From an uncultured Cohaesibacter sp. (GTDB lineage: Bacteria > Pseudomonadota > Alphaproteobacteria > Rhizobiales > Cohaesibacteraceae), in the NCBI RefSeq assembly GCF_963676275.1, contig NZ_OY781091.1, positions 2,024,775 to 2,088,774 of the forward strand: DNA of 64,000 bases, given 5' to 3'. Under the pieces are notes generated by a model. It made no database searches. It was not told the DNA's origin and worked only from the letters and a program-made list of their open reading frames with translations. Shown in pieces: positions 51 to 15,164 of the stretch. The position numbers were made by a program, and so were the translations under genes. Numbering within the stretch: position 1 is the first letter of the stretch; every line of letters starts with the position of its first letter.

Positions 51-1541
51 ATGTATCAGGTCAACAATATCATAAATGGGGCAAGTGTCGCTTCCCTTTC
101 CGAGCGCAAGAGCGCCATTTACAATCCGGCTACTGGCGAGCAGATCGGAGTGCTGGGGCTTTCTTCCGATGCTGAGGTTAATGCCGCTGTGGCAGCGGCC
201 AAAACCGCGCTGCCGGGCTGGGCCGCAACGCCTCCTGCCAAACGGGCGCGTGTGATGTTTGCCTATCAGGCTCTGGTGCGTGAGCGAGCCGACGACATCG
301 CCCACGAGATTAGTCGCGAACATGGCAAGACCCACGATGACGCGCTGGGCGAGGTGGCCCGCGCTCTGGAGGTTATCGAATTTGCCTGCGCCATTCCCGA
401 ATTGCTCAAGGGCGAATTCTCGCGCAATGTCGGAACTGGCATCGACACCCATTCCGAGCGTCAGCCGCTTGGCGTTGTCGCGGGTATCACGCCGTTCAAC
501 TTCCCGGCCATGGTGCCGATGTGGATGCTCCCGATGGCCATCGCCTGCGGCAACACTTTTGTTCTGAAACCCTCCGAGCGCGATCCATCTGCTGCCAATT
601 TTGTATGCGAGCTGCTGATGGAGGCCGGTTTGCCTCAAGGCGTTCTCAATGTGGTGCATGGCGACAAGGCGGCCGTGGATGCGCTGCTTGATCACCCGGA
701 TGTCAAGGCGGTGAGCTTTGTTGGCTCGACCCCGATTGCCGAATATGTCTACAAGCGCGGAACGGACAGCGCCAAGCGGGTGCAGGCACTGGGCGGGGCC
801 AAGAACCACATGATCGTCATGCCTGATGCTGATATGGATCAGGCCGCCGATGCCCTGATGGGGGCGGCATTCGGATCAGCTGGTGAGCGTTGCATGGCGG
901 TTTCTGTCGCCGTTCCCATTGGCGCGGAGACCGCCGCCAGACTCGTTTCCAGCCTGAAGCCCAAGGTCGAAGCGCTCAAGATCGGCCCTTCAAGCGATGA
1001 GACGGCAGAAATGGGCCCCGTGATCACCGCCGCAGCCAAGGAGCGCATTGTCGGGCTCATCGATAGCGGCGTGCAGCAGGGGGCGGAACTGGTGGTCGAT
1101 GGTCGCGGCTTCGAGCTTCAGGGCTATGAGGGCGGCTACTTCGTCGGCGGCACCCTGTTCGACAAGGTCACCCCGGCTATGGACATCTACAAGACCGAAA
1201 TTTTCGGGCCGGTGCTCTCTGTTATGGAGCCGCAGAGTTTCGAGAGCGCTGTCGAGCTGATCAATATTCATGAATATGGCAACGGTACCGCGATCTTTAC
1301 GCGCAATGGCGATGCAGCGCGCAAATTTTCCAGCCAGATCGAGGTTGGCATGGTCGGCATCAATGTGCCCATTCCGGTACCCGTCGCCTTCCATTCCTTT
1401 GGCGGCTGGAAACGCTCCAGCTTCGGCTCGCATGGAATCTATGGGCCGGAAGCCGTTCATTTCTATACCAAATTGAAGACCACCACGACGCGTTGGCCCG
1501 AGGGACTGACCGAGGGCGCCATATTCACTTTCCCGAGCTAG
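51..1541 (+). CDS. mmsA: CoA-acylating methylmalonate-semialdehyde dehydrogenase
   Basis: Aldehyde dehydrogenase superfamily protein of 496 residues, the usual MmsA length. It oxidises malonate or methylmalonate semialdehyde with NAD and CoA to acetyl- or propionyl-CoA, the last step in beta-alanine, 3-aminoisobutyrate and valine breakdown. The nucleophilic Cys is residue 281 in GERCMAVS. The early TPFNFPAMVPMWMLP segment is typical of MmsA. I chose ATG 51 because GGGGACGG lies just upstream; an in-frame TTG at 36 would add five residues and has no better ribosome site. It leads the pyrimidine-catabolism genes on the same strand, which fits disposal of the semialdehydes made from beta-alanine (uracil) and 3-aminoisobutyrate (thymine). 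The upstream partner aminotransferase is not in the window. Confidence 0.93.
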   Translation: MYQVNNIINGASVASLSERKSAIYNPATGEQIGVLGLSSDAEVNAAVAAAKTALPGWAATPPAKRARVMFAYQALVRERADDIAHEISREHGKTHDDALGEVARALEVIEFACAIPELLKGEFSRNVGTGIDTHSERQPLGVVAGITPFNFPAMVPMWMLPMAIACGNTFVLKPSERDPSAANFVCELLMEAGLPQGVLNVVHGDKAAVDALLDHPDVKAVSFVGSTPIAEYVYKRGTDSAKRVQALGGAKNHMIVMPDADMDQAADALMGAAFGSAGERCMAVSVAVPIGAETAARLVSSLKPKVEALKIGPSSDETAEMGPVITAAAKERIVGLIDSGVQQGAELVVDGRGFELQGYEGGYFVGGTLFDKVTPAMDIYKTEIFGPVLSVMEPQSFESAVELINIHEYGNGTAIFTRNGDAARKFSSQIEVGMVGINVPIPVPVAFHSFGGWKRSSFGSHGIYGPEAVHFYTKLKTTTTRWPEGLTEGAIFTFPS

Positions 1542-1668
1542 GGAGAGCGGCGGGGCCGCGCAACTGGTTTAACAATAATATTTAAGCGCCTGAAAACAGA
1601 CCGGAAAACCGGCGGCGCACTTCCAGAATAGCCCATTGGGCAAAATTAATATGACAGGGAACCAGATC

Positions 1669-2910
1669 ATGAAAAAGAATCTGCGAGTGGATGGAGACCG
1701 CCTTTGGCAGTCTCTGATGGACATGGCGAAAATCGGTCCGGGCGTCGCTGGTGGCAACAATCGCCAGACCCTGACCGATGAAGACGCCGAAGGGCGCGCC
1801 CTGTTCCAGACATGGTGCGAGGATGCGGGCCTCTCCATGGGGGTCGACAAGATGGGCTCCATGTTCATGACCCGTCCGGGCACCGACCCCGATGCGCTGC
1901 CGGTCTATGTCGGCTCACATCTCGACACCCAGCCCACAGGCGGTAAATATGACGGCGTACTCGGCGTGCTTTCTGCGCTCGAACTGGTGCGCATGCTCAA
2001 TGATGCCGATATCAAGACCAAACACCCGATTGTCGTGGTCAACTGGGCCAATGAGGAAGGCGGTCGTTTCTCGCCGCCAATGCTGGCGTCCGGTGTCTTT
2101 GCCGGTATCCATACGCTCGATTATGCCTATGGCCGCAAGGATCTGGAAGGCAAGACCTATGGCGATGAGTTGAAGCGCATCGACTGGGTTGGCGACGAGG
2201 AAGTCGGCGCCCGCAAGATGCACGCCTATTTCGAATATCACATCGAGCAGGGGCCGATCCTTGAAGTCGAGAAAAAGGAGATCGGCGTCGTTACCCATTG
2301 TCAGGGTCTCTGGTGGCTCGAATTCACCCTGACGGGCAAGGAAGCCCATACCGGATCTACCCCCATGGCGATGCGCGTCAATGCCGGCCTTGCAATGGCC
2401 CGCATTTTCGAGATGGTGCAGGAAGTGACTATGGCCGCCCAGCCAAATGCCGTTGGCGGTGTCGGGCAGGTGACCTTCTCGCCCAACTCGCGCAATGTTC
2501 TGCCCGGTACGGTGACCTTTACCGTCGATATCCGCACCGTCGACATCGACAAGCTCAATGGCATGCGTGATGCTATCAAGGAAAAAGCCGCCGTTATCTG
2601 CGAGGAGCTTGGCGTTGGCTGTTCGGTCGAACAGGTCGGGCAGTTCGATCCTGTGACCTTTGATCCGACGCTGGTCGACCGGGTGCGCAATGCAGCCATT
2701 GATCTTGGCTATTCGCATATGGATATCGTCTCAGGTGCCGGTCATGATGCCTGCTGGGCTGCCAAGGTAGCCCCCGCCACGATGATCATGTGCCCATGCG
2801 TTGACGGGCTTTCCCATAACGAAGCGGAAGACATTTCCAAGGAATGGGCAACAGCCGGGGCCGACGTGCTTTTGCAGGCGGTTCTGGAAACAGCCGAGAT
2901 CGTCGAATAG
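1669..2910 (+). CDS. M20-family N-carbamoyl amidohydrolase, probable beta-ureidopropionase
   Basis: Zinc-dependent hydrolase of 413 residues in the hydantoinase/carbamoylase branch of peptidase family M20, which includes bacterial beta-ureidopropionase, allantoate amidohydrolase and L-N-carbamoylase. Visible metal-site motifs are GSHLDTQPTGGKYDG, NEEGGRF and HIEQGP, with a late GAGHDA. Placed directly before a dihydropyrimidinase, it most likely cleaves N-carbamoyl-beta-alanine or N-carbamoyl-3-aminoisobutyrate to the amino acid, CO2 and ammonia. ATG 1669 is preferred because AGGGA sits about 8 bases upstream; ATG 1651 and TTG 1636 are in frame but lack a good site. Family assignment is secure. 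The exact substrate is inferred from context, and a second paralogue lies at 21640-22890. Confidence 0.85.
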   Translation: MKKNLRVDGDRLWQSLMDMAKIGPGVAGGNNRQTLTDEDAEGRALFQTWCEDAGLSMGVDKMGSMFMTRPGTDPDALPVYVGSHLDTQPTGGKYDGVLGVLSALELVRMLNDADIKTKHPIVVVNWANEEGGRFSPPMLASGVFAGIHTLDYAYGRKDLEGKTYGDELKRIDWVGDEEVGARKMHAYFEYHIEQGPILEVEKKEIGVVTHCQGLWWLEFTLTGKEAHTGSTPMAMRVNAGLAMARIFEMVQEVTMAAQPNAVGGVGQVTFSPNSRNVLPGTVTFTVDIRTVDIDKLNGMRDAIKEKAAVICEELGVGCSVEQVGQFDPVTFDPTLVDRVRNAAIDLGYSHMDIVSGAGHDACWAAKVAPATMIMCPCVDGLSHNEAEDISKEWATAGADVLLQAVLETAEIVE

Positions 2911-14096: not shown

Positions 14097-14159
14097 TGTC
14101 TGACAACAATCACCGACTAACCAACGACAAGACTTGAAGAACAAGGACAGGAGAGAGAG

Positions 14160-15164
14160 ATGGAATTCGGTATTTGCTTTAAAGGCTTTGTAGAGCCGAA
14201 ACGCGCCCGCGCCCTTGTGCGACAGGCCGAAAATGCTGGCTTCACCTATTGCTGGTTCTATGACAGCCATATCCTTTGGCGCGAGAGCTATATGGCCATG
14301 GCCATGTGTATGGAACATACCACCAAGATGCGCTTTGGCCCCTGTGTGACCAACCCCAACACCCGCGACTGGTCGCTGGCCGCCTCGATGTTCGGCTCGC
14401 TGGCCAAACAGTCCGAAGGCCGCTTTGATATCGGCCTTGGTCGCGGTGACAGCGCCGTTCGCGTCATGGGCCTCAAGCCAGCCCCGCTCAAGCGGCTTGA
14501 AGAATTCACCCATGTGGTCAAGGCTCTGGTGCGCGGCGATGAAGCCCAATATGGCGAATGCCCCGAGCCGGTCAAATTTCCATGGGCCGAGGGCTACGAG
14601 TTGCCGGTCTGGGTTGCTGCCTATGGCCCAAAGGCGCTGAGTTCTGCCGGGCGCGTGGGGGATGGTCTCATCCTTCAGATTGCCGAGCCGAGCATTGTCA
14701 AATGGCTGGCCAGCACCGCCATTGAAGAGGGCAAGAAAGCGGGCCGTGACATGTCGAATTATAAGGTCATGTCCGCAGCGCCTGCCTATTTCGGCACTCG
14801 GGAAGAATGCATTGCCGCCACGCGCTGGTTCCCAGCCATGGTGGGCAACCATGTCGCCGATATCGTCGAAAAATACGGCACCGAGCGTGACGACATTCCC
14901 GCAGCTCTGACCGCCTATATCAAGGATCGCAAGGGGTATGACTATTCCAAGCATGGCCAGAGCGACAACCCCTATCTCGATTTCATTACCGATGAAATCA
15001 TCGAGGGTTTCAGCGTTCTGGGCGCAGCCGAACAGCATATCGCCAAGCTGAATATTCTCAAGGATGCTGGCGTAACCCAGTTCAACATCTATCTGGATAA
15101 TGGCAAGGAAGAGCAGATTATCGCTGAATATGGCGAGACCATCATTCCGGCCTTTGGTGCCTGA
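14160..15164 (+). CDS. LLM-class F420-dependent oxidoreductase
   Basis: Luciferase-like TIM-barrel protein of 334 residues. Features are the N-terminal ENAGFTYCWFYDSH, CVTNPNTRDW and the phosphate/isoalloxazine-contact segment GRFDIGLGRGDSAVRVMG, all typical of F420-dependent rather than FMN-dependent members. GGAGAGAGAG gives a strong ribosome site. It is the only obvious F420 consumer in the window and sits at the end of a run of pyrimidine-degradation and F420 genes. I infer that it reduces or oxidises a ring compound handled by that pathway, possibly uracil or thymine. From memory it resembles the CPS_4109-type clade found in F420-making proteobacteria; this was not checked. Confidence 0.88.
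   Translation: MEFGICFKGFVEPKRARALVRQAENAGFTYCWFYDSHILWRESYMAMAMCMEHTTKMRFGPCVTNPNTRDWSLAASMFGSLAKQSEGRFDIGLGRGDSAVRVMGLKPAPLKRLEEFTHVVKALVRGDEAQYGECPEPVKFPWAEGYELPVWVAAYGPKALSSAGRVGDGLILQIAEPSIVKWLASTAIEEGKKAGRDMSNYKVMSAAPAYFGTREECIAATRWFPAMVGNHVADIVEKYGTERDDIPAALTAYIKDRKGYDYSKHGQSDNPYLDFITDEIIEGFSVLGAAEQHIAKLNILKDAGVTQFNIYLDNGKEEQIIAEYGETIIPAFGA

Follow-up and report, generated by a model that had tools for sequence, protein, structure and literature searches.

Why would a bacterium keep a full set of genes for the cofactor F420 directly behind its genes for pyrimidine degradation, and which of its enzymes reduces the pyrimidine ring? This question is raised by a stretch of 64,000 nucleotides (nt; hereafter the window) of an uncultured Cohaesibacter sp., which begins at base 2,024,775 of a genome available as a single contig (5,033,865 bases, 99.99% complete). 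A cluster at window positions 51-15164, with all genes on the + strand, joins pyrimidine degradation genes and an importer to cofGHDCE, npdG and a gene for a luciferase-like oxidoreductase (LLM). A preliminary description, made from the sequence alone, named this run of genes on one strand and proposed the LLM protein as the missing ring reductase. The run was confirmed by profile scores above cut-offs, with the permeases below theirs; scores are quoted as bits/curated cut-off (Table 1). Dihydropyrimidinase and beta-ureidopropionase are encoded together, as the reductive pyrimidine degradation pathway requires, judging from family scores and nearest structures. The pathway also requires a ring reductase as its first step. 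We propose, with a probability of roughly 0.77, that this is a reductive pyrimidine-degradation cluster in which the first enzyme has been exchanged, a uracil-inducible, F420H2-dependent reductase having taken the place of PreTA/PydA.

In the proposed scheme, NpdG would, by its family, use NADPH to reduce F420. With F420H2 as hydride donor, the LLM, a member of TIGR03842, would then reduce uracil and/or thymine at the C5-C6 bond to the dihydropyrimidine. This step is the central claim, and we infer the activity, the substrate (uracil or thymine) and the cofactor F420H2 from context. Dihydropyrimidinase and then the amidohydrolase, both strong family assignments, would yield the beta-amino acid, and a (methyl)malonate-semialdehyde dehydrogenase (MMSDH), again by family, would convert the semialdehyde to an acyl-CoA at the end of the beta-alanine/beta-aminoisobutyrate branch. 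A RutR-like repressor would control the set, as conserved residues and operators in relatives suggest.

The missing first enzyme and its candidate

The preliminary description had found no conventional dihydropyrimidine dehydrogenase in the window, and a search of the complete genome bore this out. A single protein of the genome scored above the cut-off for PF01180 (DHO_dh), and it was the quinone-dependent PyrD (TIGR01036 362/200, NF003645 490/366); the runner-up reached 21 bits, below the cut-off of 27. PreA/PydA was not found in the whole genome, where the best E value for the PreA model NF006183 was 1.2e-10, against about 1e-200 where the cut-off was met elsewhere. RutA (TIGR03612) had no match genome-wide at E <= 0.001, and the control matched in 7 of 14 genomes. 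With neither PydA/PreA nor RutA, two established routes are absent; no search was aimed at the URC and oxidative (barbiturase) pathways of uracil breakdown. The genome has a second dihydropyrimidinase (L111), 40% identical and adjoining an ABC importer, and no LLM, preA or preT match was found along the 19.5-kb stretch around it.

The LLM protein is the sole PF00296 (luciferase-like) protein of the genome, and on this basis the F420 genes of this lineage may be dedicated to pyrimidine reduction alone. Pyrimidine reduction with F420 would explain why this marine bacterium and dozens of its relatives make the cofactor. The PF04075 control matched in no genome, so its blank in the window's own genome says nothing on other F420 enzymes.

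The LLM protein consists of PF00296 alone and carries neither a DHO_dh nor an Fe-S domain. Its family, TIGR03842, is a hypothetical equivalog in NCBIfam, and its closest relatives are from Cohaesibacter (97%); no relative was found in the viral contigs and phages searched. The closest solved structures by both sequence and fold were those of Mer, and all 8 of the PDB sequence matches at E <= 1e-6 were F420 enzymes. An AlphaFold2 model built from 45 sequences (pLDDT 88.8, pTM 0.90) had F420 enzymes as its fold matches at ranks 1 to 18, comprising several chains of Mer, FGD1, FGD2, other FGD and Adf (root-mean-square deviation 4-7 A). Only at rank 19 came a protein under another name, a monooxygenase. 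By sequence comparison and by model, the LLM is thus nearest to the F420 rather than the FMN members of the luciferase-like enzymes.

RutA, which initiates a pyrimidine pathway, is of the same superfamily, so the LLM could be pictured as an oxygenase of the RutA kind, performing flavin-dependent ring opening while F420 is used otherwise. We regard this as highly improbable. The genome has no match to the RutA model, the nearest solved proteins are F420 enzymes with the monooxygenase at fold rank 19, the downstream enzymes require a dihydropyrimidine, and npdG and the cof genes adjoin the LLM gene.

Two more specific assignments of the LLM were rejected. It is not Mer itself, as it scored 124/348.7 bits with TIGR03555 and lacks Glu6, having Cys at position 6; some relatives have Thr, Ala or Val there. 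Dihydropyrimidine dehydrogenase has a catalytic Cys, and by analogy Cys6 was considered as the catalytic acid. This was ruled out by the residues found at that position in two relatives: Thr in L106, whose LLM gene adjoins amidohydrolase-dihydropyrimidinase genes, and Val in a Streptomyces protein (below).

Distribution and gene order of the LLM clade

Among genome contigs, 396 relatives of the LLM were found, and the loci described here (L numbers; genomes have G numbers) are the best 80 of these 396. Whole-genome searches covered 50 of the 80 carriers, hand-picked. The co-occurrence of this clade with dihydropyrimidinase, which the preliminary description had named as a check, held in the carriers tested: dihydropyrimidinase (TIGR02033) was above cut-off in 50 of 50 tested carriers, compared to 95 of 289 genomes of the class, and the clade was anticorrelated with PreA. 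A PreA above cut-off was lacking in 36 of the 50 carriers, among them Paracoccus denitrificans (DSM 413 draft; the LLM copy of this species is in L050). The 289 class genomes had LLM above cut-off in 5, PreA in 54 and both in none. When we counted from the lists the 95 class genomes with dihydropyrimidinase, PreA was present in 0 of 4 LLM carriers and 51 of 91 others (Fisher 0.043). In the family of Thalassovita (Rhodobacterales; 296 genomes including Thalassovita G327), PreA was found in 246 genomes and LLM in 12; PreA occurred in 3 of these 12 carriers (G327, G322 and G541) versus 243 of the 284 others (Fisher 8.6e-6). Since the genomes are related, the p-values come out too small.

Not all carriers had cof genes in view of the LLM gene. 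We searched for cofH in 11 genomes, namely nine such carriers, the window's own genome and G332, and found it above cut-off in 10 (8 of the 9 carriers); G330 had a weak match only. In the searched set outside the window's genome, cofH was part of long FbiC-kind open frames of 814-1094 amino acids, while cofG and cofH are separate in the window.

Gene order suggests an exchange. The conventional Rhodobacterales cluster (L099, L102) consists of preT-preA, a RutR-like gene on the opposite strand, and amidohydrolase-dihydropyrimidinase-ABC-NMT1. In L083, cofGHDCE-npdG-LLM fills the exact preT-preA slot, and the remainder is collinear with L099 and L102. L069 has the L083 order as far as the contig end, and L064 has it with a second RutR-like gene. 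Queries with E. coli PreA and PreT, which do detect alphaproteobacterial genes at 42-44% and 35-37% identity, respectively, had no match in any of the 80 LLM loci. Elsewhere, the LLM gene is followed directly by amidohydrolase-dihydropyrimidinase-ABC genes, with no cof genes in view (L028, L039, L060, L061, L070, L106), or dihydropyrimidinase-amidohydrolase genes are divergent from cof-LLM (L013-L019, L047, L050, L053). Overall, a dihydropyrimidinase of at least 55% identity was within view in 37 of the 80 loci. On a Streptomyces replicon, a dihydropyrimidinase gene (554 bits) ends at 9989 and the gene for a member of TIGR03842 (590 bits), which shares 45% identity with the window's LLM, begins at 10001, 11 nt apart, with AGGAGG spanning the junction; this pair is one locus. 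As a separate observation, a contig filed as Nocardioides marinus (L043) has a copy of the Rhodobacterales-like cluster, and the record is probably mislabelled or contaminated.

The cassette may be mobile. The LLM gene was on a plasmid in 10 records of Leisingera and one of Paracoccus; two of these plasmids were examined (L120, L087), and both had the whole cof-npdG-LLM cassette. The Leisingera plasmid (L120) carries hydA, genes for a Zn-dependent hydrolase and an aminotransferase, pntB and pntA, and then divergent cofGHDCE-npdG-LLM-TetR. A Caballeronia plasmid (L088 10001-13991) bears what looks like a decayed cassette in a betaproteobacterium: the C-terminal part of an LLM, genes for an amidohydrolase and alanine dehydrogenase, and pntB. 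Besides the Leisingera plasmid, 14 of the 80 loci have pntA adjoining the LLM cluster; the window cluster has no pntAB in view. The location of pntAB near npdG would fit a chain from NADH to NADPH to F420H2 to pyrimidine.

Such mobility, together with the distance between LLM and dihydropyrimidinase genes in some carriers, could mean that F420 and pyrimidine genes merely travel together, by chance or on shared elements, and that the function of the LLM is unrelated. We consider this very unlikely in view of the dihydropyrimidinase in all 50 carriers, the several gene orders, the actinobacterial pair, the depletion of PreA and the RutR-type operators 5' of cofG (next section). It seems somewhat better than an even bet that many marine and soil Alphaproteobacteria use F420 chiefly for pyrimidine degradation, with a horizontally mobile cassette that puts F420 synthesis under uracil induction by way of a RutR-like repressor and replaces the Fe-S enzyme by a single-domain deazaflavin reductase, and that Actinomycetota share the pairing. 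In that case the core of the cassette would be cofGHDCE-npdG-LLM, to which genes for pntAB, transaminase, dihydropyrimidinase and beta-ureidopropionase are added in some cases.

Regulation and the weight of the evidence

E. coli RutR binds uracil via W77, Y97, W167, Q171 and Q179, and uracil frees it from DNA (PMC10891134). The cluster continues beyond the window, with a divergent RutR-like TetR gene that faces MMSDH at 285-911 nt before window base 1 (L003:14090-14716; PF08362, 161 bits). Its product scored 190/368 bits with TIGR03613 and is therefore called RutR-like, not RutR. All five uracil-contact residues were kept in 42 of 42 RutR-like proteins, including this one; the 42 came from LLM loci and conventional clusters and were picked by similarity to the window's RutR-like protein. 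Their identity to E. coli RutR is 33-45%, and only 21 of 212 aligned RutR positions are invariant in all. A RutR-like repressor that keeps this uracil pocket suggests that pyrimidines induce even the synthesis of F420.

Operators in relatives are consistent with such control. In 40 dereplicated loci of 52 with enough sequence, we searched the 250 nt preceding the cofG alignment start for TTGACC-N4-GGTCAA, allowing up to 1 mismatch, and found it in 16 of the 40. The dereplication left some redundancy, as four of these 16 (L015, L017, L018, L019) are Pseudovibrio loci that share a near-identical site. In L034, L052 and L058 the cofG site is perfect. Upstream of other genes, the palindrome occurred for amidohydrolase in 2 of 18 and for NMT1 in 1 of 17, and never for cofH (42), cofD (48), cofC (14), cofE (55), npdG (45), LLM (48), dihydropyrimidinase (20) or the ABC ATPase (15). 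Shuffled controls had means of at most 0.15. A motif search of the cofG upstream stretches made with no prior returned TTTGAC-N6 (17/40) and TTGACC-N4 (16/40) at the top, with a maximum of 4 in shuffled sets. Sites with zero mismatches were found 5' of the amidohydrolase gene in PreTA clusters (L102, L103) and in L042, and 5' of MMSDH in L082. The window has a 13-base repeat with a TTGACC-like half, in two copies, between the RutR-like gene and MMSDH. Separately, a one-mismatch RutR-type palindrome lies at window 19285-19300 near the M42 peptidase gene of an N-acetylglutaminylglutamine (NAGGN) system, and the identical 16 bases occur in L006 at 15122.

Several observations weigh against an F420H2-dependent uracil/thymine reductase. 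The main ones are the dual-system carriers, one genome without dihydropyrimidinase, LLM paralogues and the missing operator of the window's own cluster. First, 14 of the 50 carriers also own PreA, so a related ring may be the substrate. Thirteen of these 14 had two dihydropyrimidinase matches of at least 570 bits, compared to 0 of the 36 PreA-free carriers, so in those genomes with both systems the LLM branch may act on a different substrate or play another role. On the LLM tree, a quick tree with one very long branch (L086), the 14 are explained by two changes: they form a clade of 12 (Limimaricola, Leisingera, Thalassovita, Epibacterium/Tritonibacter) and a pair of Shimia and Ruegeria. Second, G215 (L105), a 2.2-Mb genome, has cofGHDCE-npdG-LLM and no TIGR02033 dihydropyrimidinase above cut-off. 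Third, G164 and G244, genomes of one alphaproteobacterial family (f67), have more than one LLM copy, none of them beside a dihydropyrimidinase on the 5-12 kb stretches fetched. At 32 positions where the core set shows no variation and the Streptomyces protein agrees with it, these copies (L107-L110; in tandem in G164) have other residues, which hints at a further function. Fourth, a search of window 1-15164 and of 15 kb of upstream sequence, allowing up to 2 mismatches, found no full RutR palindrome, so pyrimidine control in the window cluster is deduced from the regulator and from relatives. In addition, 24 of the 40 cofG upstream stretches have no RutR palindrome at up to 1 mismatch, only 32 of the 60 loci of at least 16 kb have a dihydropyrimidinase within view, and the LLM carriers are related, so the co-occurrence counts are not independent.

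The dual-system carriers bear most directly on another explanation, in which the LLM reduces a related ring, such as a modified pyrimidine or an unsaturated hydantoin, that feeds dihydropyrimidinase and carbamoylase; the PreA-free carriers would then have another uracil route or none. Dihydropyrimidinases accept hydantoins, and the paired strong dihydropyrimidinases suggest a parallel pathway. However, the regulators keep the uracil pocket and relatives have RutR-type operators, the cassette sits in the preTA slot, PreA is depleted among carriers, and the amidohydrolase is nearest to N-carbamoyl-beta-alanine and N-carbamoyl-L-amino-acid hydrolases. We judge this explanation unlikely, and a hydantoin-like ring, which the preliminary description had offered as its alternative, is disfavoured. 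Taken together, the absence of PreA, the co-occurrence, the slot swap, the Streptomyces pair, the uracil-type regulators and the cofG operators are genome evidence in support of the LLM as the missing reductase, as had been proposed.

The cluster, its surroundings and known systems

The genes of the cluster are listed in Table 1. Successive genes from cofH through npdG overlap by 4 bases, and the npdG-LLM gap is 63 nt. The gap between importer and cofG is 243 nt; a pattern scan, overall no richer in matches than shuffles, found no terminator- or promoter-like match in it. The start of the dihydropyrimidinase is likely the internal Met of MSKVIKGGT, and its closest solved chain, 3dc8, is itself a dihydropyrimidinase. 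The amidohydrolase is closest to 8apz/8aq0 (N-carbamoyl-L-amino-acid hydrolase) and 8c46 (N-carbamoyl-beta-alanine amidohydrolase), at 733-769 bits. The substrate of the NMT1/THI5-type importer is presumed to be a pyrimidine or a precursor. CofE has one ligase domain with no FbiB-type second domain attached.

Table 1. Genes of the LLM cluster in the window, with the profile matches or other grounds for each assignment
Feature	Position	Strand	Basis (bits/cut-off)
MMSDH, CoA-acylating (methyl)malonate-semialdehyde dehydrogenase	51..1541	+	TIGR01722 697/449
N-carbamoyl-beta-alanine amidohydrolase (beta-ureidopropionase, PydC-like)	1663..2910	+	NF006769 677/452; TIGR01879 above cut-off
Dihydropyrimidinase (PydB)	3152..4630	+	TIGR02033 605/393
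ABC importer ATPase	4724..5524	+	ABC ATPase models; order shared with many relatives
ABC importer permease 1	5472..6380	+	SsuC/TauC-type permease matches, below cut-off
ABC importer permease 2	6278..7222	+	SsuC/TauC-type permease matches, below cut-off
NMT1/THI5-like substrate-binding protein	7302..8303	+	PF09084 132/20.5
cofG, FO synthase subunit 1	8547..9746	+	TIGR03550 462/213; start taken at ATG 8547
cofH, FO synthase subunit 2	9751..11028	+	TIGR03551 486/374
cofD, 2-phospho-L-lactate transferase	11025..11993	+	TIGR01819 282/257
cofC, guanylyltransferase	11990..12649	+	TIGR03552 134/105
cofE, F420-0:glutamate ligase	12646..13431	+	TIGR01916 224/181
npdG, NADPH:F420 oxidoreductase	13428..14096	+	TIGR01915 192/150
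LLM oxidoreductase, TIGR03842 family; proposed F420H2-dependent uracil/thymine reductase	14160..15164	+	TIGR03842 503/295.45

An MMSDH gene was within view of the LLM cluster in 1 of the 80 relatives only. Aminotransferase genes are close to the LLM cluster in L120, L013, L022, L023, L036, L047, L056 and L005. A gene on the minus strand at window 33357-34706, 18 kb off, matches the aminotransferase gene of L005 at 96% and is below the cut-off of every model shown; it is at most a candidate for the transaminase of the pathway.

Upstream, beyond the RutR-like gene, are a thiamine pyrophosphate (TPP) decarboxylase-like gene and then a nif cluster about 8-28 kb upstream of the window (L003, L004), with nifB, H, D, K, E, N and V all above cut-offs. 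On the 3' side of the LLM gene, window 15299-20670 holds a MarR regulator and NAGGN osmolyte genes (TIGR03104, TIGR03103, TIGR03106), and window 21640-22974 encodes another carbamoylase-family amidohydrolase, adjoining a dipeptide/nickel-type ABC importer.

If the proposed exchange is true, F420H2 would be the fourth electron donor of reductive pyrimidine degradation, besides NADPH, NADH and ferredoxin, and the first step of the pathway would gain an enzyme of an unrelated Pfam family. The hypothetical equivalog family TIGR03842 would be given a function, and the answer to the opening question, that F420 is made when pyrimidines are eaten, is directly testable. A search of an open-licence library, which leaves out most subscription journals, turned up no report of an F420-dependent dihydropyrimidine dehydrogenase, and no catabolic enzyme of this kind is described in the available portions of three related papers (PMC10714638, PMC12507026, PMC7332683).

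Each of these papers offers a partial likeness. The F420-dependent yanthine reductase proposed for Chloroflexota is likewise a luciferase-family, putatively F420-dependent protein that would stand in place of another enzyme, YgfK/UacX, before amidohydrolase steps; it differs in that it belongs to a purine pathway of anaerobes in another phylum, and it was compared by description, not by TIGR03842 score (PMC12507026). SSGG-03002/NpsU of the Streptomyces nucleoside antibiotics is a putative F420/FMN oxidoreductase needed in vivo for reduction of the uracil-ring C5-C6 bond. However, it serves mureidomycin/napsamycin biosynthesis, its in vitro assays failed, and it is likened by description only (PMC10714638). 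The ferredoxin-dependent PydAc of Clostridium chromiireducens likewise shows a changed electron donor in the reductive pyrimidine pathway, but PydAc retains the FMN and Fe-S domains of PydA, whereas the entire enzyme would be replaced in the window cluster (PMC7332683). Compared to the NADPH- or NADH-dependent PydA and PreT-PreA systems, which use a DHO_dh plus Fe-S enzyme, the window's putative first enzyme is luciferase-like and of the F420 type, with its cofactor genes inside the cluster. The proposed first reaction is alike, and the second and third enzymes, the importer and a RutR-like regulator are common to the conventional clusters of Rhodobacterales.

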